Source: B21-G16 sp003644825 [NCBI: Candidatus Zhuqueibacterota bacterium] (GTDB lineage Bacteria > SM23-31 > B21-G16). Taken from it: DNA of 13,682 bases. Numbering within the stretch: position 1 is the first letter of the stretch; each line of letters starts with the position of its first letter. Positions 1-13,682 of this stretch are shown here, piece after piece. The notes below the pieces were generated by a model that was given only the letters and a program-made list of their open reading frames with translations, did no database searches and was not told the origin of the DNA. Location: contig QNDJ01000012.1 of assembly GCA_003644825.1 (NCBI GenBank), positions 1-13,682 of the forward strand, written 5' to 3'. The position numbers and the translations under genes are program-made.

Positions 1-86
1 ATTATTCTATTGGTTCTAAAAACTTATACAATTTTACATAGTTAAGACAGTTCAAAAAATACAAAAATCAATTTTTAAGTTATAAT

Positions 87-1784
87 ATGAAAAAGATATT
101 GTTGTTTTTACTGGTATTATCAATATTAATTTTTTCAGAGGGTGTTATTATAAATGCATCAAGGGAACCGGTTATTGGCCGTAATGGAATGGTTGTATCA
201 ACAAATGAAATTGCTTCCAGAATAGGGATAGAAATCCTGAAAAAAGGAGGAAATGCAATAGATGCCGCAGTTGCTGTTTCTTATGCATTAGCTGTAGTGT
301 ATCCCCAGGCAGGCAACATTGGCGGCGGTGGATTTATGATTATACGACTGGCAGATGGAAATATTACTGCTATAGATTACCGGGAAACTGCACCTGAAAA
401 ATCTTCAAGAAATATGTATCTGGATTCTAACGGTAATGTTATAAAAGAAAAAAGTGTAAGAGGATATTTAGCATCTGGAGTTCCAGGTACTGTAGCAGGT
501 TTATCTTTTGCTCTTGAAAAATTTGGAACAATGAAATTACGTACTCTAATAAAACCAGCTATAGAACTCGCAAAAAACGGGTTTCCTGTCAGTCAGGGTT
601 TTTCAAGAGTTCTCAAAAATTACTCTTCTCTTTTTAAAAGATTTTCAGCCCCTGCAAAAATATTCTTAAAAGGTAAAAACTTTTATAAACCCGGCGATAT
701 ACTAATTCAAAAAGACCTTGCAAAAACATTACGTTTAATAGCTGAACAGGGAAAAGATGCCTTCTACAGGGGAAAAATAGCAAAATTGATTGAAAAAGAA
801 ATGCTGGAAAACGGTGGAATCATTACAAGAAATGACCTCGCAAATTACAACCCAAAGCTGAGAGAACCTGTTAAAGGAACTTATAAAGGATATACAATTT
901 ACTCAATGCCACCTCCAAGTTCTGGTGGAATTGCACTCATTGAAATGCTCAATATACTTGAAGGATATAATATAGGTAAATCGGGTTTTAATTCTTCAAA
1001 AACAATTCATTTTATGGTAGAAGCTGAAAAAAGGGCTTACGCTGATAGAGCCCAATATCTTGGAGATCCCGATTTTGTAAGTATACCTGTGAAAACTCTA
1101 TTATCCAAGAAATATGCAGAAAAATTGCGGAAAAGCATTAATAGAAATTACACTACACCTTCTGAAAAAATAAAACCAGGCAATTCAATCATTAATGAAA
1201 GGCAGCATACAACCCATTTTTCGATAGTAGATAAGGAAGGAAACGCTGTTTCCTGCACCACAACTTTAAATTCATATTTTGGTTCTGGAGTCCTCATTAA
1301 GGGAGCAGGATTTTTTATGAATAATGAGATGGACGATTTCAGTTCAAAGCCGGGCTCTCCGAACATCTATGGACTGGTTGAAGGAGAAGCAAATGCTATT
1401 GAACCTGGTAAAAGAATGCTGAGCTGTATGACCCCAACTATCGTTACAAAAAATGGTAAACTTTATATGGTGGCGGGCACACCCGGTGGTGCAACAATTA
1501 TAACAACAGTTTTACAGGTTATATTAAACGTTATTGAACATAAGATGGATATTCAGGAAGCCGTTGATGCACCCAGATTCCATCACCAGTGGAAACCAGA
1601 TACAATTTATTACGAAAAATTTGCTATTTCAAAAGATGTCAGGGAAAACCTCGAAAAAATGGGATATAACCTGACTTTAAAAAGAGACTATGGAGATGCC
1701 CATGCTATTCTTGTAGACCGAAAAAACAATATCCTTTACGGTGGCGCTGATAGCAGACAGGAAGGTAAAGCAGAAGGTTATTAA
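87..1784 (+). CDS. ggt: Gamma-glutamyltranspeptidase / glutathione hydrolase precursor
   Basis: Cleaves the gamma-glutamyl bond of glutathione and other gamma-glutamyl compounds and passes the glutamyl group to water or an amino acid; expected in the periplasm. The 565-aa product starts with a signal peptide (MKK, then a hydrophobic stretch to about residue 18), which supports this ATG although no good ribosome site precedes it. The match to the E. coli enzyme is end to end: substrate-binding Arg99 in DYRETAP, the self-cleavage site with nucleophile Thr375 in HTTHFS, the NNEMDDFS motif, the lid region YGLVEGEANA, the oxyanion motif GTPGG, and APRFHHQW near the C-terminus. By family knowledge the precursor splits before Thr375 into a large and a small subunit. 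The E. coli serine pair in LSSM reads LSCM here. The stop lies 1 base before the next gene's start, so it probably leads an operon. Identity is secure; the physiological substrate is inferred. Confidence 0.96.
   Translation: MKKILLFLLVLSILIFSEGVIINASREPVIGRNGMVVSTNEIASRIGIEILKKGGNAIDAAVAVSYALAVVYPQAGNIGGGGFMIIRLADGNITAIDYRETAPEKSSRNMYLDSNGNVIKEKSVRGYLASGVPGTVAGLSFALEKFGTMKLRTLIKPAIELAKNGFPVSQGFSRVLKNYSSLFKRFSAPAKIFLKGKNFYKPGDILIQKDLAKTLRLIAEQGKDAFYRGKIAKLIEKEMLENGGIITRNDLANYNPKLREPVKGTYKGYTIYSMPPPSSGGIALIEMLNILEGYNIGKSGFNSSKTIHFMVEAEKRAYADRAQYLGDPDFVSIPVKTLLSKKYAEKLRKSINRNYTTPSEKIKPGNSIINERQHTTHFSIVDKEGNAVSCTTTLNSYFGSGVLIKGAGFFMNNEMDDFSSKPGSPNIYGLVEGEANAIEPGKRMLSCMTPTIVTKNGKLYMVAGTPGGATIITTVLQVILNVIEHKMDIQEAVDAPRFHHQWKPDTIYYEKFAISKDVRENLEKMGYNLTLKRDYGDAHAILVDRKNNILYGGADSRQEGKAEGY
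1772..1777 (+). promoter_or_regulatory. Ribosome binding site for the CutA1-nicotinamidase gene
   Basis: AGAAGG lies inside the last codons of ggt, 8 bases before the ATG at 1786. It decides the start: the reading frame is also open from a GTG at 1741, but that would add 15 residues (starting MALIADRK) ahead of the first CutA1 strand and would lie wholly within ggt. Confidence 0.7.
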
Positions 1785-1785
1785 A

Positions 1786-2649
1786 ATGGAAAGTAGAAAA
1801 ATAATTGTGTTCATAACAGCCAGTTCTGAAGAAGAAGCAGAAAAAATCGCAAGAAATTTAGTAAAAAAAAGGCTGTCTGCCTGTTGTAATATCGTTCCCG
1901 GTTTAAGGTCAATTTATAGATGGAAGGGAAAAATCTGTGATGATAAAGAAGTCCTTATCATCATTAAAACTATGCAGAATGTCTTTAAAAAACTGATTGA
2001 AGAGGTTAGAAAAATTCATAGTTACACTGTTCCAGAAATAATAAGTTTTAAAATAGAAGATGGCTTCAAAGAATACCTTGATTGGATTGAAAAAGAAGTA
2101 AAAACACAGGTAAATCCGAGAAAGATTATGGGAAGAACTGCATTAATTGTTGTTGATATGTTAAATGATTTTGTAAATGAAAAGGGAGCTCTGTATTGCG
2201 GTAAATCATCAAGGGAAATTATTCCTTTTATAGTTGAAGAGATTAAAAGGGTCAGAAAGATTAAAGGATTGATAATATTCTTACAGGATAATCACAATAA
2301 AAATGACCCTGAATTCAGGATGTTTCCTGAACACTGTGTTGCCGGAACCTGGGGCGCACAGATAATCGATGAAATTGAAGTAAAACCCGAAGATATTATT
2401 ATACCCAAAAAACGATATAGCGGATTTTATGGAACAGAACTTGACAAAATCCTAAAGGAAAACAACATAACAGATGTAAAAATTGTAGGAGTATGCACTT
2501 CAATTTGTGTTATGGATACTGTAGGTGACCTGAGAAACAGAGATTATCCTGTTACTGTATTTAAGAAAGGTGTTGCGGATTTTGACCCGGAGGCTCATAA
2601 ATTTTCCCTCAAAAGAATGCAAAAAATTTATGGAGCAAAGATAATCTAA
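1786..2649 (+). CDS. CutA1 domain fused to nicotinamidase (isochorismatase-like cysteine hydrolase)
   Basis: A 287-aa two-domain protein. Residues 4-105 form a complete CutA1 domain (divalent-cation tolerance family, a ferredoxin-like trimer): ITASSEEEAEKIA, LSACCNIVPG, SIYRWKGK, the YTVPEI motif, and the usual end EYLDWIE. After a linker of about 10 residues, 115-287 form a cysteine hydrolase of the nicotinamidase type, hydrolysing nicotinamide to nicotinate and ammonia. Visible catalytic residues are Asp124 (VVDMLNDF), Lys208 (PKKRYSGF) and Cys241 (VCTSICV). Likely metal ligands are Asp168, His170 (QDNH) and His183 (FPEHC). The HCVAGTWGA and KRYSGFYGT segments favour nicotinamidase over isochorismatase, and the next gene codes for the next enzyme of NAD salvage. 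The frame is open throughout. An internal ATG at 2128 could give a 173-aa nicotinamidase alone. Domain calls are firm; what the fusion achieves is unknown. Confidence 0.9.
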   Translation: MESRKIIVFITASSEEEAEKIARNLVKKRLSACCNIVPGLRSIYRWKGKICDDKEVLIIIKTMQNVFKKLIEEVRKIHSYTVPEIISFKIEDGFKEYLDWIEKEVKTQVNPRKIMGRTALIVVDMLNDFVNEKGALYCGKSSREIIPFIVEEIKRVRKIKGLIIFLQDNHNKNDPEFRMFPEHCVAGTWGAQIIDEIEVKPEDIIIPKKRYSGFYGTELDKILKENNITDVKIVGVCTSICVMDTVGDLRNRDYPVTVFKKGVADFDPEAHKFSLKRMQKIYGAKII

Positions 2650-3696
2650 ATGAAATATCCAGATTTCAAACATCTTAATTATTGCTTCGACAGGTTGAAA
2701 AAAGGTTACTATTCCGATAAATACTTTGTTAGAACAGGAGACATACTGATTAAAGAGAAAAAACACCCCAGAGTTCTAATGCAAATATTTGCAAAAAAGA
2801 ACGGCATCTTCTGCGGTGGGATGGAAGCCACCTATGTTATTAAAAATTCAGTCTCAAAAAGTGATGGTCTTTCTATAAAGGCACTCAAAGATGGAGAACC
2901 ATTTTCTCCGTGGGAAACTGTTATGACAATAGAAGGGGATTACTCTCTTTTTGCTCACCTTGAAACTGTTTACCTTGGTATTCTGGCAAGAAGAAGTGCA
3001 GTAGCTACTCTTGTAAGAAAATGTAGAGAAAAACTTCATAATAAAGAGCTACTCTTTTTTTCATCCAGGTTCGACCACTTTTTGAATCAGGAAGGTGATG
3101 GTTATGCTGCCTTTATAGGTGGAGCTGATGGGGTCTCAACTGATGCAAATGGAATCTTAATCGGTAAAAAAGGAATCGGAACCATCCCTCATGGTTTAAT
3201 AGCAGCATATAACGGAAATACAGTTGATGCAAGCCTCGCTTTTGATAGATGTGTACCAAAAGATGTAAGGAGAATAGCTCTTGTTGATTTTGATAATGAC
3301 TGTGTAAAAACCTCTCTGGAAGTGGCAAAAACTTTAAAGAAGAAGCTCTGGGGGGTCAGATTGGATACAGCTGAAAATCTGGTCGACGCATCTATAGAAA
3401 GAATAGGCTTAAAAGAAAAAGGTGTTGGCCCCCAACTTGTCAGAAATGTCCGGAATGCCCTCGATAAAGAAGGGTTTGATTATGTTAAAATTGTTATAAG
3501 CGGCGGTTTTAATCCAGAAAAAATAGACCAATTTGTTAAACTAAATGTTCCTTTCGATGCTATTGGAATTGGTTCTTATTTTTTTTCTGAAAGAATCGAC
3601 TTTACTGCCGATGTTGTTATGGTTGATGGAAAACCCTGTGCAAAGGTCGGTAGAAAGTATAACCCTAACGACAGACTTAAAACTATATCCATTTAA
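2650..3696 (+). CDS. pncB: Nicotinate phosphoribosyltransferase
   Basis: Joins nicotinate and PRPP to give nicotinate mononucleotide, the entry step of NAD salvage from nicotinate; cytoplasmic. At 348 aa it belongs to the short form of the family. Recognisable points are YYSDKYFVRTGD near the N-terminus (20-31), the LETVYLGIL helix (104-112), SSRFDHF (138-144), GTIPHGLIA with His181, GVRLDTAENL with Arg238 and Asp239 (235-244), ISGGFNPEKI (283-292) and the phosphate-binding IGIGSYF (305-311). Its ATG follows directly on the stop of the nicotinamidase fusion with no spacer, so the two are almost certainly co-translated, and together they turn nicotinamide into NaMN. The family also contains divergent members and quinolinate phosphoribosyltransferase is related, but the YxSDxY-type N-terminus and the neighbour favour this name. 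Confidence 0.9.
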   Translation: MKYPDFKHLNYCFDRLKKGYYSDKYFVRTGDILIKEKKHPRVLMQIFAKKNGIFCGGMEATYVIKNSVSKSDGLSIKALKDGEPFSPWETVMTIEGDYSLFAHLETVYLGILARRSAVATLVRKCREKLHNKELLFFSSRFDHFLNQEGDGYAAFIGGADGVSTDANGILIGKKGIGTIPHGLIAAYNGNTVDASLAFDRCVPKDVRRIALVDFDNDCVKTSLEVAKTLKKKLWGVRLDTAENLVDASIERIGLKEKGVGPQLVRNVRNALDKEGFDYVKIVISGGFNPEKIDQFVKLNVPFDAIGIGSYFFSERIDFTADVVMVDGKPCAKVGRKYNPNDRLKTISI

Positions 3697-3697
3697 C

Positions 3698-3704
3698 GGG
3701 AGAA
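3698..3704 (+). promoter_or_regulatory. Ribosome binding site for the cstA-like gene
   Basis: GGGAGAA sits 6 bases before the ATG at 3711, in the 14-base gap after pncB. It is among the clearest Shine-Dalgarno sites in the run and supports the chosen start. Confidence 0.65.
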
Positions 3705-3710
3705 TTAATA

Positions 3711-5321
3711 ATGATTAATGTTTTATGGATACTGGTAATTTCCCTTATACTTCTAATTTTAGGGTATCGCTTTTATGGGAAATTTATAAGCAAAAGTATA
3801 GGAGTGGACTCTGAAAGGAAAACACCAGCACACACAATGAGGGATGGTGTAGATTATGTTCCTGCAAAAACTCCAGTATTGCTGGGACATCATTTTGCTT
3901 CAATAGCCGGCGCAGCTCCGATTATTGGGCCTGTTACAGCAGCTGTTTATGGCTGGTTTCCTGTACTGCTCTGGGTTGTATTCGGTGGAATATTTCTGGG
4001 TGCTGTTCATGATTTTTCCTCACTTCTGGCATCAGTCAGACATCAGGGAAGGTCTATCGGGGAAGTAATTGAAGAAAGAGTCGGGCACACTGGAAAACTA
4101 TTGTTTTTAGTTTTTTCCTTTTTTGCTCTTATTCTTGTTGTTTCTGCTTTCACTATCATTGTTGCAAAAACTTTTGTTAAAGTTCCTGAAGCTGCTACTT
4201 CATCAGCCCTGTTTATATTACTTGCACTACTGTTCGGGCTCAGTGTTTACAGAAAGGTGTTACCTCTAAGTATAAGTACCATTATCGGGGTTATATTATT
4301 ATTCCTGTGTGTATATATCGGGCTTTTGATTCCAATAAAACTCTCATTTCAACTGTGGGTTATAATTTTATTGATTTATATTTTCTTTGCATCTGTAACC
4401 CCCGTCTGGATATTACTTCAACCGAGAGATTATTTAAACTCTTTTCTTCTATATACAATGATAATTGGAGCTCTTATAGGTATATTTATTTCCAGACCTT
4501 CAGTCCACCTTGATGGTTACACAGCTTTTCATCAGAATATTGGGTATCTTTTTCCCATACTTTTTGTAACAGTTGCATGCGGGGCTATTTCTGGTTTTCA
4601 CTCTCTTGTTGCTTCAGGAACAACCGCAAAACAGCTTAACAATGAAAAGGACGCAAGAGTCATAGGATATGGGGCTATGCTAATAGAATCTCTTCTTGCA
4701 GTAATTGCACTGATAACTGCAGCTATAATAACGAGAGAAAAATACCACAGTTTCTTTCCAGACCCGGGTCCTGTAGCTCTTTTTGCTGAAGGTGTTGGTG
4801 GGTTTTTGAGCAAAATAGGGTTTCCATTACAGGCAGGAATTTCTTTCACAGCCCTTGCGGTATCCGCTTTTGCATTAACCTCTCTTGATACAGCAACAAG
4901 GCTTGCTCGATTCAGTTTCCAGGAATTCTTTATACCAAGAAAAGGTGAAAAACCATCAATTTTATGTACAAATAGATTTATAGGCACAATTGTTGTTGTT
5001 ATCATTTCTGGAGCCCTCGCATACAGTGGAAAATGGCAGGCAATCTGGCCTTTATTTGGTTCTGCAAATCAATTACTTGCAGCAATAGCACTCCTCGCTG
5101 TATCAGTATGGTTAGCATCAATGGGAAAAAGAAATTTCTATACAAAGTATCCTATGGTTTTTATGTTCGCAGTTACTTTAACAGCTCTGGTAATAATATT
5201 CTTTAAGAATATTTCAACAGGAAATTACATCTTATCCTTTCTGGCAGTTTTATTATTAGCAGTAGCAATTATACTTGGATACCTATCATCAAAAAAACTG
5301 TTTATAAGAACAACAACATAA
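3711..5321 (+). CDS. cstA: CstA-family carbon starvation protein (peptide/pyruvate transporter)
   Basis: A polytopic inner-membrane protein of 536 aa. Most of the chain is hydrophobic segments, the first at about residues 4-20. The CstA signature regions are present: RDGVDYVPAKTPVLLGHHFA, then the IAGAAPIIGP segment, the FGGIFLGAVHDF segment, and later VACGAISGFHSLVASGTT and TSLDTATRLARF, with the last transmembrane bundle corresponding to the CstA 5TM region. It is shorter than E. coli CstA (about 700 aa), as in many anaerobes. Known relatives import peptides or pyruvate, so uptake of small products of extracellular or periplasmic peptide breakdown would fit the upstream ggt; that substrate is inferred. 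The gene sits 14 bases after pncB and 31 bases before a receiver-domain gene. CstA-like carriers are often under two-component control, but no histidine kinase is in the window. Confidence 0.93.
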   Translation: MINVLWILVISLILLILGYRFYGKFISKSIGVDSERKTPAHTMRDGVDYVPAKTPVLLGHHFASIAGAAPIIGPVTAAVYGWFPVLLWVVFGGIFLGAVHDFSSLLASVRHQGRSIGEVIEERVGHTGKLLFLVFSFFALILVVSAFTIIVAKTFVKVPEAATSSALFILLALLFGLSVYRKVLPLSISTIIGVILLFLCVYIGLLIPIKLSFQLWVIILLIYIFFASVTPVWILLQPRDYLNSFLLYTMIIGALIGIFISRPSVHLDGYTAFHQNIGYLFPILFVTVACGAISGFHSLVASGTTAKQLNNEKDARVIGYGAMLIESLLAVIALITAAIITREKYHSFFPDPGPVALFAEGVGGFLSKIGFPLQAGISFTALAVSAFALTSLDTATRLARFSFQEFFIPRKGEKPSILCTNRFIGTIVVVIISGALAYSGKWQAIWPLFGSANQLLAAIALLAVSVWLASMGKRNFYTKYPMVFMFAVTLTALVIIFFKNISTGNYILSFLAVLLLAVAIILGYLSSKKLFIRTTT

Positions 5322-5352
5322 TCCTGAAAAAACAAAAAAATAAAGGGGTAAT

Positions 5353-5736
5353 ATGGGGAACATATTAGTAATTGATGATGAACCTTCTGTTGCAAACCTG
5401 TTTTCGGAAATGATAAAATCCCTTGGCCACAACCCAATTATAGCTTCCAATGCAACCGAAGGTTTAAAATTATTCAAAAAAAACCCTGTAGATATTACCT
5501 TCGTTGACATTAAATTACCAGGGGTCAGTGGAGTTGAGTTCCTGAAAGAAGTAAAAAAAATCGACAGCAAAGCAATTGTTGTGGTAATTACAGGATATCC
5601 TTCATCAGAAACTATTACTGAAACCATTCTTCACAACGGTTATTCGTATCTTGAGAAACCTATTACTATGGAAAAACTCAGAATCATTATTGAAAGAGGG
5701 CTGAAAAAGAAAAATGAAAATAATTCAACATCCTGA
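5353..5736 (+). CDS. Single-domain response regulator (CheY-like receiver)
   Basis: A 127-aa receiver domain with no output domain. The acidic pocket Asp8-Asp9 (VIDDEPS), phospho-acceptor Asp52 (FVDIKLPG), the switch Thr80 (VITGYPS), and Lys102 with the following Pro (LEKPI) are all present, so it should be phosphorylatable. Tyr99 occupies the aromatic switch position. The chain ends about 12 residues after the last predicted helix in a Lys/Asn-rich tail, leaving no room for DNA binding. AAAGGGG ends 4 bases before the ATG. It lies between the cstA-like gene and an ATP-grasp gene with short gaps. It may relay a phosphate or act by protein contact on a partner; neither partner nor kinase can be identified here. 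Confidence 0.92.
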   Translation: MGNILVIDDEPSVANLFSEMIKSLGHNPIIASNATEGLKLFKKNPVDITFVDIKLPGVSGVEFLKEVKKIDSKAIVVVITGYPSSETITETILHNGYSYLEKPITMEKLRIIIERGLKKKNENNSTS

Positions 5737-5772
5737 AATTTTAACACGATTCTTAATATTTAATTTAAGATT

Positions 5773-6666
5773 ATGTCCATTGGTATCTTATTTGAATCCA
5801 GAGAATGGTCAAATTTAGCCATATCAAAAATCCTGACCTCAAAAGGAATTGATAACGAACTGATAGACGTTTCACAATTCAGCTTCAATATTGCTTCAAA
5901 TTTTAACCATAATCTATACTGGAATAGAATATTCCCGAGCCTTGAGATGAGAAATCATCATCTAACATTACACATTATTAATAATTTTCTATTTTATTTG
6001 AATGAAACTAATGTTCCTGTTGTAAATTCATATAAGGCATTCTTTTATGATTTCAATAAAATTGCCATATACAAAATTCTTAAAGAAAAAGGGTTCAATA
6101 TACCCGAAACAACCGGAATTAATTCACCAGATGATTTTAAAAAAGCAATTAAATTATCAAAACTACCTTTTGTACTGAAAAGGAACAGAAGTGGAAGAGC
6201 ATGGTCCCTTGAAATAATCAATAATAAAGAACAGATAGAAAACCAGATTAAAAAGTTCCCACTTTCAAATGACTTCTGGCTTGTCCAGGAATATATACCG
6301 TTAAAACATAATTATGTTACAAGAATAGAAATTGTGGGAGATAATGTACTGTGTATCTTAAAAAGATTTCCTGGCTCTGAAGGAATAAGCAGTTATTCGA
6401 GAGGGTCATCTATCAAATTATATAAGAATTTCCCGATTGATGTTGTAAACACAGGGAAAAAAGCATTAAATATACTTGACATTGAGATGGGAAGTATAGA
6501 TATTATAGAAAGTATAGATGGAAAAAATTATATAATTGATGTTAATGCAACAACAAACTTTACACCAGATTATATTGACCTTCTTGGGTTTAACCCACTC
6601 GAAAGAATGTGTGATTTTGTGATAAAGAAATATAAAAGTTTAAAACAAAAGAGTAGTTATGAGTGA
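5773..6666 (+). CDS. RimK/LysX-like ATP-grasp ligase of unknown substrate
   Basis: A 297-aa protein with the layout of small ATP-grasp ligases, which activate a carboxylate as acyl-phosphate and join it to an amine. The N-terminal preATP-grasp part is about residues 1-85 (MSIGILFESREWSN). The linker FYDFNKIAIYKILKEKGFNIPET (91-113) is typical of the RimK/LysX/GshB group. ATP-binding elements follow: Lys136 (FVLKRNRSGR), QEYI at 172-175, and Arg184 in RIEIVGD. Metal ligands near the end are Asp243 (GSIDII) and Asp256 with Asn258 (IIDVNAT), where the family often has Glu-x-Asn. The loop after Lys136 has a single Gly, less glycine-rich than in RimK. The ribosome site is weak. The gene overlaps the next by 8 bases, so the two products probably act together. 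The fold is firm; the substrate is not known. Confidence 0.85.
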   Translation: MSIGILFESREWSNLAISKILTSKGIDNELIDVSQFSFNIASNFNHNLYWNRIFPSLEMRNHHLTLHIINNFLFYLNETNVPVVNSYKAFFYDFNKIAIYKILKEKGFNIPETTGINSPDDFKKAIKLSKLPFVLKRNRSGRAWSLEIINNKEQIENQIKKFPLSNDFWLVQEYIPLKHNYVTRIEIVGDNVLCILKRFPGSEGISSYSRGSSIKLYKNFPIDVVNTGKKALNILDIEMGSIDIIESIDGKNYIIDVNATTNFTPDYIDLLGFNPLERMCDFVIKKYKSLKQKSSYE

Positions 6667-7195
6667 AAAAGTAAAACAGGATAACAATCTTCAATTGAAC
6701 CAGAGAATCGAAGAATTTAACGATATTAAACTCTTATTTAATACATTTGGAGAAACTGCATACAGGGCAGCCTGGAAATATTTCTTTTCGAATGGTTATG
6801 AGGTTGGTTATGAGAGATTTATGAAGGCTGTAAAAAAAGGAACCCTGACACCAGAAAAATTTAAATCTGAGCCTGTTAAAACAATAGAAAACTTCCTGAA
6901 AGAGTTCTTCAGGGAAAGAGGTGGAAATCAACCCGAAATATGGAGTGAAAACTCAACAATTTTTCTGAAAACAGAACGGGATGTATGGTGTCCCGCTCAC
7001 GATGCTGTTGCCATTTCAGGTATCAATCATAAAGATATATGCTCAATCCATAAAAGAGCCTTTGTCATAGGTATTGTAAAAACCTTTGAGGAATTCTTCC
7101 CGGGGTTAACCACCAATTGTTATAATGTTAGCTCAAGATTTCTGGATGAAAATGCAGATTGTATCGAAGCATATCAAATTATATATTACGGTTAA
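6659..7195 (+). CDS. Small Cys/His-rich protein, ATC-hydrolase-like family
   Basis: A 178-aa soluble protein without signal peptide or membrane segment. Residues 1-90 are mainly helical and charged. Residues 108-178 form a cysteine-bearing domain with Cys111 and His114 (WCPAHD), Cys128 and His131 (DICSIH), Cys154 (TTNCYN) and Cys168 (NADCIEAY). The order CP, C, then a final dCxx strand resembles the L-2-amino-thiazoline-4-carboxylic acid hydrolase family (Pfam ATC_hydrolase and related DUFs), recalled from family knowledge and not searched. The C/H pairs could bind a metal or a cluster instead. Its ATG lies within the last codons of the ATP-grasp gene, overlapping by 8 bases in another frame, implying translational coupling. 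That it modifies or supplies the ATP-grasp substrate is only an inference. An alternative is a V4R-like small-molecule-binding domain. Confidence 0.75.
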   Translation: MSEKVKQDNNLQLNQRIEEFNDIKLLFNTFGETAYRAAWKYFFSNGYEVGYERFMKAVKKGTLTPEKFKSEPVKTIENFLKEFFRERGGNQPEIWSENSTIFLKTERDVWCPAHDAVAISGINHKDICSIHKRAFVIGIVKTFEEFFPGLTTNCYNVSSRFLDENADCIEAYQIIYYG

Positions 7196-7201
7196 TTAAC
7201 C
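7190..7201. repeat. 12-base perfect palindrome at the stop of the Cys/His-rich gene
   Basis: GGTTAATTAACC is fully self-complementary and contains the stop codon of the upstream gene. It has no loop and no following T-run, so it is not a terminator. It could be an operator for the DUF5916 gene 33 bases downstream, or chance in AT-rich DNA. Confidence 0.4.
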
Positions 7202-7234
7202 CGAAAATACTAAAGGATAGTCTCAGGAAAAATT

Positions 7235-9367
7235 ATGGCACAAATAAATAGAAATCTTGTTAATGTAATATTAATTCTTATTTTTATATTGCAAAATAAT
7301 GCAAATTCCCAGACTAAAACAGGGAAAGATGATATAAGAATAATATACGCCAGGAAAACTGACGAAGAAATTAAAATCGATGGTAACTTGTTTGAAAAAT
7401 CCTGGGAAAAAGTATCCCCTCAGGCAGATTTTATCCAGTTAGAACCCCATAAAGGAAAATTAGCTACAGAAAAAACAGAAGTTAAAGTTCTTTATAACGA
7501 AGAAAATCTTTATATAGGGTTCAAATGTTATACATCATCACCATCAGATATCATTGCTTCTATAACAAGAAGAGACCAATTATTAGGCTCTGGACATCAA
7601 TCCCGGAAGAGTGATGATAATGTTGTTATAATCATAGATACATTTAATGATATGAGAAATGGCTATTGTTTTGCAATCAATCCTTTAGGAACTCAACTTG
7701 ATATGAAAATTGCAAATGATGGAAGAAGCAGAGATACTAATTGGGACAGCGGCTGGAAAGCAAAAGCTCAAAAACATAAGTGGGGATGGTCAGCAGAATT
7801 TTCTATTCCATTTAAAATTATGAGATTTAATATATCAAAAAATATGGTCTGGGGAATAAATTTTGGCAGGTTCATTTCAAAAAAACTGGAAACCGACTGG
7901 TGGTCAGGAAGAATGGATGAAGATTTTCGTATATCTCAGGGTGGAATCTTAATGGGGCTTGACATCCTGAAAAAGGAAAAAGATCTCCACTTAATACCAT
8001 ATAGCACATCAAGGCAGGAAAAAATAACCTCAAAAAATATACAGGGAAGATGGAAAGAAGAAATAGGTTTAGATATTGAATATAACCCTATTTCTAACTT
8101 AACAAGCAATTTTACTATAAACCCTGATTTTGCAAGTGTTGAAGGAGACCGGGAACAAATAAATCTGACACGATTTGAACTGCAGTTTCCCGAAAAAAGA
8201 AGGTTTTTTCTCGAGGGCAGCGAGCTCTTCAGAAACAGAATAAGAGTTTTCTATTCAAGGAGAATCGGTAATATTTTATACGGTGGGAAAGCTACAGGAA
8301 AATTTAAAAAATACAACATTGCTATGATAAATGTTCAGGCAGAAAAAGTTCAGGATGACCCATATACTGATAATAATGAGTCATTCCCCGAAGCAAACAT
8401 CTCCGTTTTCAGAGCCCAGAGAGATATTCTGAAATCCTCAACCATAGGTTTACTGGCTGTTAATAAACAATGGAAAGGTGGGTATAACAGGGTCGTAAGT
8501 CTCGATGCAACATTGAATTTACCATATCATCTGTATGGAACTGCACAGTTTGTTGGGTCCTGGCCGGGTAATTTGACAAAGGGAAGCGCCTTCTTTCTGA
8601 GGCTGGAAAGAAGATCAAATATATATGATTATCATCTCAGATATACAAACCTTGGAGAAGAATTTCGTGAAAGGGTTAATCCCGTTGGATTTATAAGAGA
8701 TGATGACAGGCACGAACTCGATTCCGCAGTAAGATATAAGTGGTGGATTAAAGGTAAAAAACTTGATTATATCGATTACCGCTCCAACTATAACATCTAC
8801 TGGAGTCATAAAAAAATCCTCAGAAGTTATGATATATGGGAAAGGCTACGATTTTATTTTGTAAATAAATTAAGCATTGAAACAATGTATGATTATGAAT
8901 TTAAACTATTTGAAAAACGATTCTTTAATAACAAAAAGAGTATAAAAATAGGATATAATACCGAAGAATGGACTTCCAAAGAAATTGAATTTCAATGGGG
9001 AAAAAACTTCGATAGAGATTATAAATTGTATTCTGCAAGTGCAAAATTCAAACCAAGCAGAAAACTCTCTATTGAATATTCATTAAAAAGACTCATATTT
9101 AACCCGGACCCAAATAATAATACCACGTTTATTAACATCCTGATATGTAATTACCAGTTCAATCCAGATTTATTTATCAGATTATTTGTTCAAAACAACT
9201 CTTCCATAGATAGATATTATATTTATTCTATTTTCGGTTATAGGTTCAGACCCCCCTACAGTGCAATTTACGTTGTATTCACCAACGATAGATTCTGCTC
9301 CTTACATAAAACAATTGAAACAAACAGAATTTTATTCCTGAAGTTTTCCTACTCTCTGGACTTATAG
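7235..9367 (+). CDS. CBM9-like / DUF5916 outer-membrane beta-barrel protein
   Basis: A 710-aa secreted protein. The signal peptide covers about residues 1-26 (hydrophobic 9-20, then NANSQ). Residues 44-235 form a carbohydrate-binding-module-9-like domain: KIDGNLFEKSWEKV, EENLYIGFKC, NGYCFAINPLGTQ and WGWSAEFSIPFKIMRF. Next comes the DUF5916 signature around residues 298-332, with NPDFASVEGDREQ, NLTRFELQFPEKR and FFLEGSELF. The rest alternates short polar and aromatic strands, as in a large outer-membrane barrel, and ends in a hydrophobic final strand (FLKFSYSLDL). Members are common in Bacteroidetes, Acidobacteria and candidate phyla; none has an established function that I can name, although surface binding or transport is usually assumed. 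AGGAAA lies 5-7 bases before the ATG. It is the last gene of the run, 39 bases after the Cys/His-rich gene, and may have its own promoter. Confidence 0.9.
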   Translation: MAQINRNLVNVILILIFILQNNANSQTKTGKDDIRIIYARKTDEEIKIDGNLFEKSWEKVSPQADFIQLEPHKGKLATEKTEVKVLYNEENLYIGFKCYTSSPSDIIASITRRDQLLGSGHQSRKSDDNVVIIIDTFNDMRNGYCFAINPLGTQLDMKIANDGRSRDTNWDSGWKAKAQKHKWGWSAEFSIPFKIMRFNISKNMVWGINFGRFISKKLETDWWSGRMDEDFRISQGGILMGLDILKKEKDLHLIPYSTSRQEKITSKNIQGRWKEEIGLDIEYNPISNLTSNFTINPDFASVEGDREQINLTRFELQFPEKRRFFLEGSELFRNRIRVFYSRRIGNILYGGKATGKFKKYNIAMINVQAEKVQDDPYTDNNESFPEANISVFRAQRDILKSSTIGLLAVNKQWKGGYNRVVSLDATLNLPYHLYGTAQFVGSWPGNLTKGSAFFLRLERRSNIYDYHLRYTNLGEEFRERVNPVGFIRDDDRHELDSAVRYKWWIKGKKLDYIDYRSNYNIYWSHKKILRSYDIWERLRFYFVNKLSIETMYDYEFKLFEKRFFNNKKSIKIGYNTEEWTSKEIEFQWGKNFDRDYKLYSASAKFKPSRKLSIEYSLKRLIFNPDPNNNTTFINILICNYQFNPDLFIRLFVQNNSSIDRYYIYSIFGYRFRPPYSAIYVVFTNDRFCSLHKTIETNRILFLKFSYSLDL

Positions 9368-9727
9368 ATATATTATGACCCTTTTTTATTCTAAAATGAT
9401 AATAACACTGTAATATATATATGAGGTTTGAATAAATACATCAGTTAAAAATTATAGTTGAAAAACATCATGAGCAAAATGTAGTATATCTTCTGGAGAT
9501 AAAAGGTATAAACTAAAGAAATCTTAGGAACCTCTATTACAGAAGTCGAATTGTAAGGTTCAACACTTGGAGTTGTTTGCAGGTAATCAGTGATAAGACA
9601 AAAAAATCTTTTAGAATCTTACCATAACACTATCATAAATAAAAGTTTATTCAAATTTTAATTGAAGACAAAGTTTAACAGATTCCTCTAATTTGCAACA
9701 ATATCCAGAAACTGGTTTTTATTTTAT
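9368..9727. other. AT-rich intergenic region between convergent genes
   Basis: No reading frame of useful length and no RNA gene is recognisable in these 360 bases, where the + strand run meets the - strand peptidase gene. There is a run of alternating TA near 9412-9420. An imperfect inverted repeat GAACCT (9528-9533) / AGGTTC (9556-9561) has a 22-base interior. A small hairpin lies at 9705-9715. Strong terminators for either neighbour are not evident. Confidence 0.6.
9705..9720 (+). terminator. Weak candidate terminator
   Basis: CCAG-AAA-CTGG (9705-9715) is followed directly by five T, then more T-rich sequence to about 9728. The 4-bp stem is short for intrinsic termination. It lies 338 bases past the DUF5916 stop, so it is a weak candidate only. 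Confidence 0.25.
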
Positions 9728-12319
9728 TCAGGGAAGAACCGTTAATTCTGCTGTACTGTAATTAAAAGAATTAAACAGAAGCTTAAACGTTCCATAAGCC
9801 TGAGCCCTCTGAATTGCATTAAACCCTATTAGAATTGCTCTTCCTTTTTTAAATGGTATTTCTACGAGTGCTGCCTTATTAAACAGTGTTTTTTCTCCTA
9901 AAATCCATCCACTCATAAGGGGATTTCTATCAGGATACATCGCAATTATATTTGCTTCAACATTAAAAGAGGGAATAACCTTAAAGGCCGGGCTTCTGGC
10001 AAAAAATGCTCCTACCTTTTCAGGCATTCCATAACCAACAGGATGAGAATTGTTAATTTTTACCGAAAGAATAGAACCAGGGCAGAAAAACTCCTCAGGC
10101 TTTTTCCCCTTCAGAATATTTATTACAGGAAGTTTGAACTCTCCCGTAAGCAAATCTGATGCCGAGTTAAGGGTTATAAGTGTTCCCCCATTTTCTACAA
10201 ACTCTTTTAAATTATAGAGCCCCTGATTACCGATACCTTTTGCAAAAAGAGGTGGAACCGTTCCTTCTTCTCTCCCCTTCAGAATACCCTCAGCTCTAAT
10301 ATCAGGAATGTAAATAACATCATATCTATCGTTCAGTTTTCCTGCTTTTATTTCCGAATTATGTATATTTTTGTATTCAATTTCAAATTTCTCAAATACC
10401 CACCTGCTCCATCCTTCACTCATACTTGCGGTCCATGGCTGATAAACGCCCAGTCTGAAGGGTTTTAATAGATATCCTTTTCCCCTGACCCTTTCATCTA
10501 TTCCATAAAAATTCAGATACAGTTCCTTTGTTATAGACTGAAGTTCATCCAGCAGACCAGCCTTTACCGGTATTACCAGATCTCCTCTGTGAATTTTTAT
10601 GTTACCTGCAGTATGTTCACCTTTACTCCAGTAAACCTCAAACCCTTTTTTCAACAACCTGTTAGTAGCTATTATGCTATTATTGGTTTTATGACTTAAC
10701 ACAAAAGCGTAATCAGGATGAGGATTTTCTACCTTTCCTTCAGGATATTCAACTTTGCGAACAGGGATAAGTTCAGCATCAAAAGGGTTATCTACCTGAA
10801 CTGTATTAACATTCATCTGGTACGGAAGGGTCCATCCACAAAAATCATAGGGCCTGACTGGTGGGCCACCAGGGTATAACCTGATATCAGGATATCTTTG
10901 AGGTTCCAGCATATCTTTTGCAAAAGCCCTGTATGGTTGAGACATTGGAACTACAAAAGTTCCGGAAGGATAGTTCACTCCATCAGCGATAAAATCTTTC
11001 CCGGTTTTATATATTTTTACTCCTCCTTCCTTAAGGACATCTATCATTTTCAATGCTGTAATATCATCCCACTGGTTGGGTGGAATTACAAAAGCAAAAG
11101 GAGGCTCTTTTTTTCCTTTTTCAATTGCCCTCTTATTCATCAAATAAAAATTGTAAAGAAGCCTTGACCTGAATTCAGAACAGGCATCAAGTAAAGATAG
11201 AGTTGCATTGAGTTCGTAATCAACAATATTCCTCAATTTCCACCAGCCACCGGGCCAGGGATTCGGAAAATTCATATACTTATCATAGGAAGGCAATCCT
11301 CTTCCCCTGCCTTTGAGTTCGGATTTTCGCTGAAATACAGGCGATGCAATTTTACAACTTGCCATCTCTGTTAACAGACCCACACAATTGTGATACCAGG
11401 CAGTCATAAGAAAAGCACCCTGCCACCACCCTGTATAAAAAGCTCCTGTTATAACACCGCTGAATCCTTTAGATTCAAGGTCAACCGCTATGTGTTCACC
11501 TAAAAGAGCTGTTTCCCGCCATATTAACGGGTCAACATTAGGATTAATCGGGTCACAGAAAGGAGGAACAAACAACCTGGCTCCCCTGTTGCCCATCTGG
11601 TGCTCATCAAGATACACCTGAGGAAACCATTCTTTATATAAAATCCTGTTAACAAGCCTTGATTCAACCTGTGTAAGCATATAAGCATCCCTATTATTAT
11701 CATGACCGGTATATGTATGATACAAATAGGGCATTGGGCTCGCCTCAAAAGGTGTCTCTAAATATTTTTCATACCAGGTTCGTACCTTCTCAAGACCATC
11801 GGGATTAAAACTCGGAACAAGAAGAAAAATCACATCATTCAGTATTCTTTTGACCCGGGGGCTTTTCTCAGTTAAAAGTCTATAAGTCAACTCTACAGAC
11901 ATCTGTGCTGCACCTACTTCCGTTGCATGAATACTGCAGGTAATTAATAGGATGAGTTTTCCCTTTTCGGAAAGTCCTTTTGCTACCTTTTCAGACATTC
12001 CTCCCGGATTTGCCAGCTTTCTGGATATACTTTTATACTCCATCAGATTCTTCATATTCTCTTCAGAGGAAATTATCGCCATTATAAAGGGCCTTCCCTC
12101 TGTAGACTTCCCCAATTCCTTAACTGTAATTTTATCCGAGGCATCGTCAAGCATATTAAAATAAGTATAAATCTGTTTCCAGCTTGCAAGTTTATAATCC
12201 TCACCAACTTTAAACCCGAGAAACTCTTCTGGTCTTACTATCTGAGAGGTTGATTGAGCTGCAAAAGTTAAAAAAATCAATGAAAAAACGATTAAAACAA
12301 AGGTTCTTTTTATCGACAT
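9728..12319 (-). CDS. Secreted M14-family zinc carboxypeptidase-like protein with C-terminal amidotransferase-like domain
   Basis: An 863-aa exported metallopeptidase. I start it at the ATG at 12319, where MSIKRTFVLIVFSLIFLTFAA gives a clean signal peptide and GGGG lies 6 bases upstream. The frame stays open to a TTG at 12382, which would put 21 polar residues in front of the signal. The M14 catalytic domain (about 45-400) shows the zinc ligands His131 and Glu134 in SIHATE, NPDG at 172-175, an NNRD arginine at 210, the third ligand His240 in YLDEHQMG, and the likely catalytic Glu318 in LLTEMAS. It should remove C-terminal residues or cleave peptides or peptidoglycan stems outside the cytoplasm. 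Residues of about 630-863 resemble the class I glutamine amidotransferase/ThuA-like fold (VIYIPD, the FVENGGTLITL segment, GRAILIGF) without an evident Cys-His-Glu triad. Such two-domain M14 proteins are common in Acidobacteria-like genomes. It lies alone, convergent with the + strand run. Confidence 0.9.
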   Translation of the reverse strand: MSIKRTFVLIVFSLIFLTFAAQSTSQIVRPEEFLGFKVGEDYKLASWKQIYTYFNMLDDASDKITVKELGKSTEGRPFIMAIISSEENMKNLMEYKSISRKLANPGGMSEKVAKGLSEKGKLILLITCSIHATEVGAAQMSVELTYRLLTEKSPRVKRILNDVIFLLVPSFNPDGLEKVRTWYEKYLETPFEASPMPYLYHTYTGHDNNRDAYMLTQVESRLVNRILYKEWFPQVYLDEHQMGNRGARLFVPPFCDPINPNVDPLIWRETALLGEHIAVDLESKGFSGVITGAFYTGWWQGAFLMTAWYHNCVGLLTEMASCKIASPVFQRKSELKGRGRGLPSYDKYMNFPNPWPGGWWKLRNIVDYELNATLSLLDACSEFRSRLLYNFYLMNKRAIEKGKKEPPFAFVIPPNQWDDITALKMIDVLKEGGVKIYKTGKDFIADGVNYPSGTFVVPMSQPYRAFAKDMLEPQRYPDIRLYPGGPPVRPYDFCGWTLPYQMNVNTVQVDNPFDAELIPVRKVEYPEGKVENPHPDYAFVLSHKTNNSIIATNRLLKKGFEVYWSKGEHTAGNIKIHRGDLVIPVKAGLLDELQSITKELYLNFYGIDERVRGKGYLLKPFRLGVYQPWTASMSEGWSRWVFEKFEIEYKNIHNSEIKAGKLNDRYDVIYIPDIRAEGILKGREEGTVPPLFAKGIGNQGLYNLKEFVENGGTLITLNSASDLLTGEFKLPVINILKGKKPEEFFCPGSILSVKINNSHPVGYGMPEKVGAFFARSPAFKVIPSFNVEANIIAMYPDRNPLMSGWILGEKTLFNKAALVEIPFKKGRAILIGFNAIQRAQAYGTFKLLFNSFNYSTAELTVLP

Positions 12320-12325
12320 TTTTAA

Positions 12326-12329
12326 CCCC
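12326..12329 (-). promoter_or_regulatory. Ribosome binding site supporting the M14 peptidase start
   Basis: GGGG on the - strand, 6 bases before the ATG at 12319. It overlaps an in-frame upstream ATG (12331) that has no ribosome site of its own. Modest evidence; the signal peptide position is the stronger argument. Confidence 0.4.
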
Positions 12330-12540
12330 ATAGGTTTGTCATTTGTTATTAAACAATTAATTAAACGGTCAAATCTCATCAAAAATTCACTTACTTATCA
12401 GTTGCCCATTTAAAAAGTTTGGAATTACAAAAGAATTAATCATAAGTCTCAGTTTATCTGTATAAGATAATTTTTCATCCCGATAGTTTTTCATACTTAG
12501 TGTACTCCAGACCAGGCAAAAACCCTGATTTTAAAGTTTT

Positions 12541-12573
12541 TCGGTCAGGCAAGGATGCCTGAACTACAGCCGA
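12541..12573 (-). repeat. REP-like palindrome with GTAG tetranucleotide
   Basis: Read on the - strand, a 7-bp stem TCAGGCA / TGCCTGA encloses the loop TCCT (12545-12562). It is preceded one base away by GTAG (12564-12567), and the whole is flanked by TCGG (12570-12573) and CCGA (12541-12544), which could pair as an outer stem. A GTAG or GGAG tetranucleotide at the 5' foot of an imperfect hairpin is the known design of REP elements mobilised by RAYT (TnpA-REP) transposases. Only one copy is in the window, so repetition is not shown. Confidence 0.5.
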
Positions 12574-12591
12574 TGGTTATTTACATTTGTA

Positions 12592-12603
12592 GAACAAGTG
12601 TTC
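12592..12603. promoter_or_regulatory. GAAC-N4-GTTC palindrome (possible LexA-type operator)
   Basis: GAACAAGTGTTC is a perfect GAAC-N4-GTTC dyad; the flanking base makes the - strand read CGAAC-N4-GTTC, the core of the Bacillus-type SOS box. It is 273 bases upstream of the peptidase start and no SOS gene is adjacent, so chance is quite possible. Confidence 0.25.
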
Positions 12604-12887
12604 GTTTATGAATAGTTTTTACACAGTTTGAATAATGGTTGTGATACGTGGATAATTTTACATTATTAATTCCTTTAATTACTGGTAAAAATTCAATTTT
12701 TGAACATTTAACTTTTTCCTCACCAGAATCGAATTACTGTCATCGGTTCATAACAAAACAATTTTTTATTATGATTCTGTACAGGCTCACAATGACAGGT
12801 ATTTTTAAACCACTACTGCAGGTAAAGTAACCTATTTTATATTATTAATTTTTTTTCCGTTTATTTTTTTCTGCTTTATTCAGTTCA

Positions 12888-13682
12888 CTATTTGATTAAT
12901 TTAATGGAAGTTTTAATTGTTCCACTCATAGGAATTTCCATCTGCGTCATTGAAACAGTTGCTTCAAGTGTACCGGTGGAACTCACCTCTATATAGTATC
13001 CTTTTCTATATGCGAAGAGTATTTCTCCCTTGCTTTTACTTGTTCCATCCATTGTGAAATCCATTCCCATCTGTGTCCCCTTACCCTTAATTTCGGATGT
13101 TTGCTCAAAAGCAATTTTCAAACACTCAGTATTATCCTTCATCAATTTCTCAACAACTGTATATTTAGAACTGGTATTGACATTTGTTTCATTTTCTCCA
13201 ACTTTTTCAGTATAGGAGTCTGTTGAAGTCCAGCTATCATTTATTTTAACGGATTTTTCAGATAAATCAAAAAAGAAATTTCTGAAATAGCTTGATACAG
13301 ACTGATATGAACCTTCAACAGGCGGGAATAGTTCCTGGTTTTTCATTTCCAGGAATTTACCCTTATTGGAGATTTTTACTTCAAGTTCTTTACCGATATA
13401 TTTAGACATATCAGGGCTCATTTCACCCTGAGGGGATGAAGCTGTTACAGATATAGAATCAAACCCCATCCCGAAAGTAATAGCGCCATCTTCTGCTACA
13501 TCTTTCACCTTAGAAAAAATCCTTGCTTTTACATCGGAAGTAGTTTCCATTTCATTGCCCATCACTTCCATTAACATTTCAGTATTGATTGTGAAATCAT
13601 ATTTGAGTGTGCTTCCTACTTCTGGACGATAGGTCAATATAAAACCAGTTTTCTCATTACCCCAGGGCTCAGACTTCTTTGC
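12888..13682 (-). CDS. Partial gene for a beta-rich, probably secreted protein of unknown function
   Basis: The 3' part of a gene running off the right edge; 264 codons plus stop are visible. A TTG at 13637 could be taken as a start, but the frame remains open for 15 more codons to the last base, and TYRPEVGSTLKYDFTINTEM looks like the middle of a beta-sheet, so the true start lies outside. The protein is rich in Ser, Thr, Lys and Glu and in alternating strands (ELEVKISNKGKFLEM, then DSWTSTDSYTEK, then TSSKYTVVEKL), and ends in repeated strands of Thr/Ser with hydrophobic residues. The pattern of a Y-x-P-x-x-G start and G-K-E-L-E-V-x-I-x-x-x-G resembles the DUF6263-type family of exported bacterial proteins, but I do not recognise it with confidence. 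The single Cys in the visible part is within NTECLKI. Confidence 0.8.
   Translation of the reverse strand, partial: AKKSEPWGNEKTGFILTYRPEVGSTLKYDFTINTEMLMEVMGNEMETTSDVKARIFSKVKDVAEDGAITFGMGFDSISVTASSPQGEMSPDMSKYIGKELEVKISNKGKFLEMKNQELFPPVEGSYQSVSSYFRNFFFDLSEKSVKINDSWTSTDSYTEKVGENETNVNTSSKYTVVEKLMKDNTECLKIAFEQTSEIKGKGTQMGMDFTMDGTSKSKGEILFAYRKGYYIEVSSTGTLEATVSMTQMEIPMSGTIKTSIKLIK

Follow-up and report, generated by a model that had tools for sequence, protein, structure and literature searches.

CutA1 is a widespread protein with no agreed function. PMC8469502 describes CutA1 proteins as PII-like trimers with a proposed role in carrying small molecules or in signalling, and presents the DUF34 protein YqfO, whose inserted CutA1-like domain forms trimeric lids suggested to regulate catalysis. 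The copper ligands of the E. coli protein are C16, H83 and H84, according to a figure legend of PMC6516651. Here we analyse a stretch of 13,682 nucleotides (the window) from B21-G16 sp003644825, a member of Candidatus Zhuqueibacterota (GenBank assembly GCA_003644825.1, contig QNDJ01000012.1, positions 1 to 13,682 of the forward strand), in which a CutA1 domain is joined in frame to a nicotinamidase-like enzyme. If nature has fused CutA1 to an enzyme whose chemistry is understood, that enzyme would offer a convenient read-out of the CutA1 ligand. We did not see this fusion elsewhere in our searches, and it is probably a by-product of gene insertion. The gene and its parts are:

1786..2649, + strand: fusion gene (CutA1 domain, short linker, nicotinamidase-like domain), 287 residues, an open frame with two Pfam domains
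1801..2094, + strand: CutA1 domain, residues 6-103 (PF03091, E 9.1e-38)
2095..2127, + strand: linker, residues 104-114, spanning the usual CutA1 end and stopping short of the native start of free nicotinamidases
2128..2130, + strand: M115, native start position of free nicotinamidases and possible internal start (Met in 9 of 31 rows)
2137..2631, + strand: isochorismatase-fold (nicotinamidase-like) domain, residues 118-282 (PF00857, E 4e-42)
2155..2157, + strand: D124, presumed catalytic Asp (D in 25 of 31 aligned nicotinamidase-like rows)
2407..2409, + strand: K208, presumed catalytic Lys (K in 30 of the 31)
2506..2508, + strand: C241, presumed catalytic Cys (C in all 31)

The fusion is real in the assembled sequence: both domains are complete and match their families far beyond chance. 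The first half scores 128.5 bits against PF03091, whose curated cut-off is 22.4, and covers positions 1-98 of the 99 in the profile; its C33, W46, H78 and Y80 are common to all 22 other CutA1 rows of our alignment. The NCBIfam CutA equivalog NF041095 is narrowly missed (114.1 bits versus 120), so that the domain family can be assigned while the equivalog name cannot. The gene starts with ATG at 1786, the mechanical frame opening upstream at a GTG at 1741, inside ggt, and no second CutA1 was found in the same genome (G000; 493 contigs, 83.6% complete).

The second half scores 144.7 bits against PF00857. By analogy with solved nicotinamidases, we take D124, K208 and C241 to be the catalytic triad, and D168, H170 and H183 (Asp-x-His ... 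His) to be the metal ligands. The latter are kept in 27, 26 and 25 of the 31 other rows, 30 of them distinct since L008 and L024 are one gene; rows that differ at triad or metal positions have gaps, masked letters or other residues there. The NCBIfam nicotinamidase equivalog NF008623 is far below its cut-off (45.5 versus 174 bits). Other cysteine hydrolase models outscore it somewhat, yet stay far under their own cut-offs (RutB, 69.8 of 377.95). The residues, the best fold matches and a neighbouring gene for nicotinate phosphoribosyltransferase (NAPRT) point to deamidation of nicotinamide as the probable reaction. A first-pass annotation of the window had proposed a complete CutA1 joined by about 10 residues to a complete cysteine hydrolase with its D-K-C triad and metal ligands, and Pfam and the alignment bear this out.

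A single-chain AlphaFold model, built on an alignment 13 sequences deep in which nicotinamidase fragments were cut N-terminally (L031 also C-terminally), contains two confident domains and has an overall mean predicted local distance difference test (pLDDT) score of 85.5. The linker is disordered in it (pLDDT below 50 at residues 108-114), and with a predicted template modelling score of 0.58 the mutual arrangement of the two domains is not well defined. In Foldseek, the first CutA1 listed for the CutA1 half is that of T. thermophilus (1nza; root-mean-square deviation (rmsd) 0.7 and 50% identity over 101 columns), and the second half matches best B. subtilis PncA (6a8l, also 5zn8). By comparison with other CutA1 proteins, the CutA1 half most likely forms a homotrimer.

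Searches for other genes of this kind were uniformly negative. There was no second fusion in 386 genomes across phyla (E up to 1e-18; among the matches listed, up to about 2.5e-23) or in 398 genomes of one large phylum, that of G057 (E up to 1e-28), two sets that overlap by at least 2 genomes, and further smaller genome searches gave no independent fusion. The phylum of G000 itself contributed six genomes to the collection searched. A scan of genome contigs with the fusion as query brought up 17 relatives, each with one of the two domains only, and viral contigs yielded one weak relative; in plasmid and phage collections no record among the best matches listed covered 80% of the query. Such searches might miss a fusion in which both domains are highly diverged. 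In a literature search for which most subscription journals were out of reach, a fusion of CutA1 with a nicotinamidase or isochorismatase was undescribed, and the co-mention of nicotinamidase found in the CutA1 literature was a reference title only. Within the cut-offs used, the architecture, which the first-pass annotation did not know as a described system, did not turn up elsewhere in the genomes, plasmids and phages searched.

Several candidates were examined and rejected. Some matches appeared to span the join (G366, G268, G272, G239, G533, G410, G059, and likewise G151, G064, G055 and G011, and the CutA1 matches in G319, G300 and G233), but none was accompanied by a reading frame for the partner domain. 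Long stop-to-stop frames enclosing CutA1 (L060, L061, L064, L065, L066, L075, L076) or nicotinamidase (L011, L012, L022) resembled further fusions; by Pfam, none of the ten contains a second domain. As a separate observation, tandem isochorismatase-like matches occupy one 432-aa frame in two genomes of one genus (G107:C184:22061-23194 and G369:C34:31474-32610).

The retrieved loci, which are those collected for this analysis and not a random sample, show what stands beside each gene. Among 42 further nicotinamidase-like loci, all distinct, none has a cutA match within its flanks, which span roughly 0.4 to 7.7 kb on each side. Likewise, none of 25 further distinct CutA1 loci has a nicotinamidase match within flanks of roughly 0.3 to 6.4 kb on each side. 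A NAPRT match is found near seven of the 42 (L003/G006, L009/G049, L020/G057, L022, L057/G281, L058/G146 and L081/G366), so the recurrent neighbour of the nicotinamidase gene (pnc) is NAPRT, not cutA. In the window, the surrounding genes are:

87..1784, + strand: gamma-glutamyltransferase gene (ggt), upstream neighbour (PF01019, E 1.1e-188)
2650..3696, + strand: NAPRT-like gene, directly past the fusion stop codon, 348 aa
3711..5321, + strand: CstA-family transporter gene (cstA), downstream neighbour (PF02554, E 5.2e-168)

The NAPRT-like product exceeds the cut-off of equivalog NF006415 (253 bits versus 243) and falls short of that of NF005529 (338.5 versus 378), and the proposal that the next gene encodes the following enzyme of nicotinamide adenine dinucleotide (NAD) salvage is in this way upheld. 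Four of its relatives (L041, L042, L043, L046) have frames of 464-543 aa with matches in two or three pieces, which suggests inserted segments relative to the 348-aa protein of the window.

In a genome of the same class (G003, locus L072) ggt, a free cutA (114 aa) and cstA are contiguous on one strand, and their products are 55%, 47% and 65% identical to those of the window. The window, with the order ggt-[cutA::pnc-NAPRT]-cstA, is set apart from G003 by pnc and NAPRT, which follow cutA and precede cstA. In G004 cutA adjoins a more distant cstA (39% identity), but the two diverge. A search for NAPRT in the rest of the class (five genomes, G001-G005) found none. When the fusion served as query, there was no match in G001, G002 or G005, only the CutA1 in G004, and in G003 its CutA1 together with one weak isochorismatase-like match (28%, E 4e-5). 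Outside the class pnc and NAPRT do stand side by side, at 62% and 64% identity in G006 and at 58% and 57% in G146. Taken together, the gene row of G003, the lack of NAPRT in the rest of the class and the pairs outside it fit the view that G000 acquired the pnc-NAPRT pair and that the join is a by-product. The pair was probably inserted downstream of cutA and upstream of cstA, pnc becoming linked to cutA almost exactly end to end.

The mechanism that we favour, and consider reasonably probable as a whole, would run as follows. A pnc-NAPRT pair, probably laterally acquired, would have landed between cutA and cstA of a resident ggt-cutA-cstA row, and the nicotinamidase would have become fused in frame to cutA, with one 287-residue protein as the presumed gene product. 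Its CutA1 part, most likely trimeric, would bear three nicotinamidase domains on flexible tethers, each predicted to use the customary Asp-Lys-Cys chemistry to convert nicotinamide to nicotinate, which the NAPRT encoded by the next gene would convert to the mononucleotide. CutA1 itself would be mainly a passive, perhaps stabilising, carrier of an active enzyme. NadA, of the de novo route, was found in G002 and G003 and not in G000 or the other three (two of six genomes), as expected for G000 if it relies on salvage. Together with the finding of NAPRT in G000 alone of the six, this raises the possibility that salvage has replaced de novo NAD synthesis within the class.

A number of points weigh against this scheme. 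G001, G004 and G005 are also without a NadA match, which loosens the salvage argument, and every absence is weak given a completeness of 63-90% for the rest of the class and of 83.6% for G000. Gain rather than loss of the pnc-NAPRT pair rests on few data, so that the direction we give is a tentative one. Judged by identity alone, the CutA1 half stands no nearer to its own class (47-52%) than to several outsiders (up to 57%). The fusion occurs in a single genome, hence there is no gauge of selection on the fused form. Activity and trimer are predictions, and sequence by itself cannot separate a passive carrier from a regulator.

The join is close to an exact one. Of the 22 other CutA1 rows, 21 end 5-14 residues past the Trp matching W100 (window residues 105-114), the exception being L065, whose row end at 24 residues was set by trimming. 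On the other side, the column of M115 holds the first Met of L003, L004, L005, L007, L009 and L022. As the natural ends of both families meet here, the two proteins are fused nearly end to end, with a linker of about 8-12 residues.

The fusion might be an artefact or reflect strain variation: a consensus error of one base, or a recent mutation, would have removed the cutA stop while the genes are separate in the living population. Over 2074-2150 frame 0 is open, and frame +1 has TAA at 2099, 2111 and 2144. The first of these, at 2099-2101, falls at the usual CutA1 end and may be a relic of the old cutA stop. It would be in frame were the A-run just upstream one base shorter, and a one-base change in this run could have created the join, either in evolution or by error. 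We take this as a hint only, since out-of-frame stops are frequent in DNA of 35% G+C, as the three in frame +1 illustrate. The first-pass annotation had named separate genes in relatives as a sign against the fusion, and separate they are in every relative seen. Nevertheless, frame 0 runs stop-free through the join, and the adjoining ggt, NAPRT and cstA frames are long, uninterrupted and without signs of frameshift, so we regard an artefact as unlikely, though not far-fetched.

Another possibility is that ribosomes also start at M115 and give a free nicotinamidase, in which case the fusion would matter little. A Met at 2128, just where free nicotinamidases start, fits this idea. However, the 20 bases before M115 pair with a generic anti-Shine-Dalgarno sequence at -3.4, a value that 12 of the window's 44 other internal ATGs equal or better, and the strongest pairing is remote from the Met codon, at the very start of those 20 bases. 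M115 has no convincing ribosome-binding site. Such a second product seems to us quite unlikely.

Finally, the CutA1 trimer might bind a small molecule or metal and tune the attached nicotinamidase as a PII-like regulator would. The PII-like trimers with their proposed signalling role and the precedent of the CutA1-like insert of YqfO, both as described in PMC8469502, speak for it, and with NAPRT next door a connection through the pathway is conceivable. Against it stand the absence of the pairing from all 42 nicotinamidase-like and all 25 CutA1 loci, the disordered linker with no defined domain arrangement in the model, and the likely insertion between cutA and cstA, which accounts for the neighbourhood without any function. 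Metal binding finds little encouragement either. In a match to 1naq (equal lengths, offset 6), the positions of the E. coli copper ligands C16, H83 and H84 are taken by I10, I77 and H78, so two of the three have no counterpart. Among the 22 other CutA1 rows Cys is found at position 10 in one, His at 77 in one and His at 78 in all, which indicates that the first two ligands are not family-defining. Ligand regulation of the fusion is thus possible but unsupported, its metal version being the weakest, and we rate tuning of the enzyme by CutA1 as very unlikely. A PII-like sensor-enzyme in which the CutA1 trimer senses a small molecule and exerts direct control over nicotinamide salvage would provide CutA1 with a definite physiological output, but we consider this highly improbable.

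Insertion of the salvage pair next to cutA remains in our opinion the better account of the locus. The domains, the NAPRT neighbour and the lack of any sign of the architecture elsewhere agree with the initial interpretation. Its functional part fares worse: a tie of CutA1 to NAD salvage is undermined by the locus counts and by G003, where cutA has ggt and cstA as neighbours and the locus contains neither pnc nor NAPRT, so that the join looks like an insertion product. Sensing of metal is weakened by H78 being the only one of the three E. coli copper ligands retained. The neighbourhood shows that an isolated fusion of this sort may be the outcome of an insertion and says little about a shared role, a useful caution against inferring function from fusion. 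Elsewhere in the window, two proteins match no family of Pfam or NCBIfam at E 0.001. One, of 178 aa (6659-7195, + strand), is flanked by the genes of an ATP-grasp (RimK-like) and a DUF5916 protein; the other (12888-13682, - strand) lies at the window edge and is at least 264 aa long.

Compared with known systems, the fusion contains free CutA1 as a complete domain (1nza, 50% identity, rmsd 0.7), but the free chain ends a few residues past its final Trp, while that of the fusion runs on into the enzyme. With free PncA (B. subtilis 5zn8 and 6a8l, P. horikoshii 1ilw) it shares fold, triad and metal ligands and, as at seven of the 42 nicotinamidase-like loci, the NAPRT neighbour; it differs by its N-terminal CutA1 domain and by not reaching the NCBIfam nicotinamidase cut-off. 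The engineered T33-31 cages (4zk7, 7l85) are, to judge by entry title, protein-presenting particles with a CutA-fold component, and are designed, not natural. In YqfO-type DUF34/NIF3 proteins, as presented in PMC8469502, the CutA1/PII-like domain is inserted, whereas in the fusion it is N-terminal, the enzyme is unrelated and the occurrence is confined to one genome; common to both is a CutA1-like trimerising domain joined to a presumed metalloenzyme.
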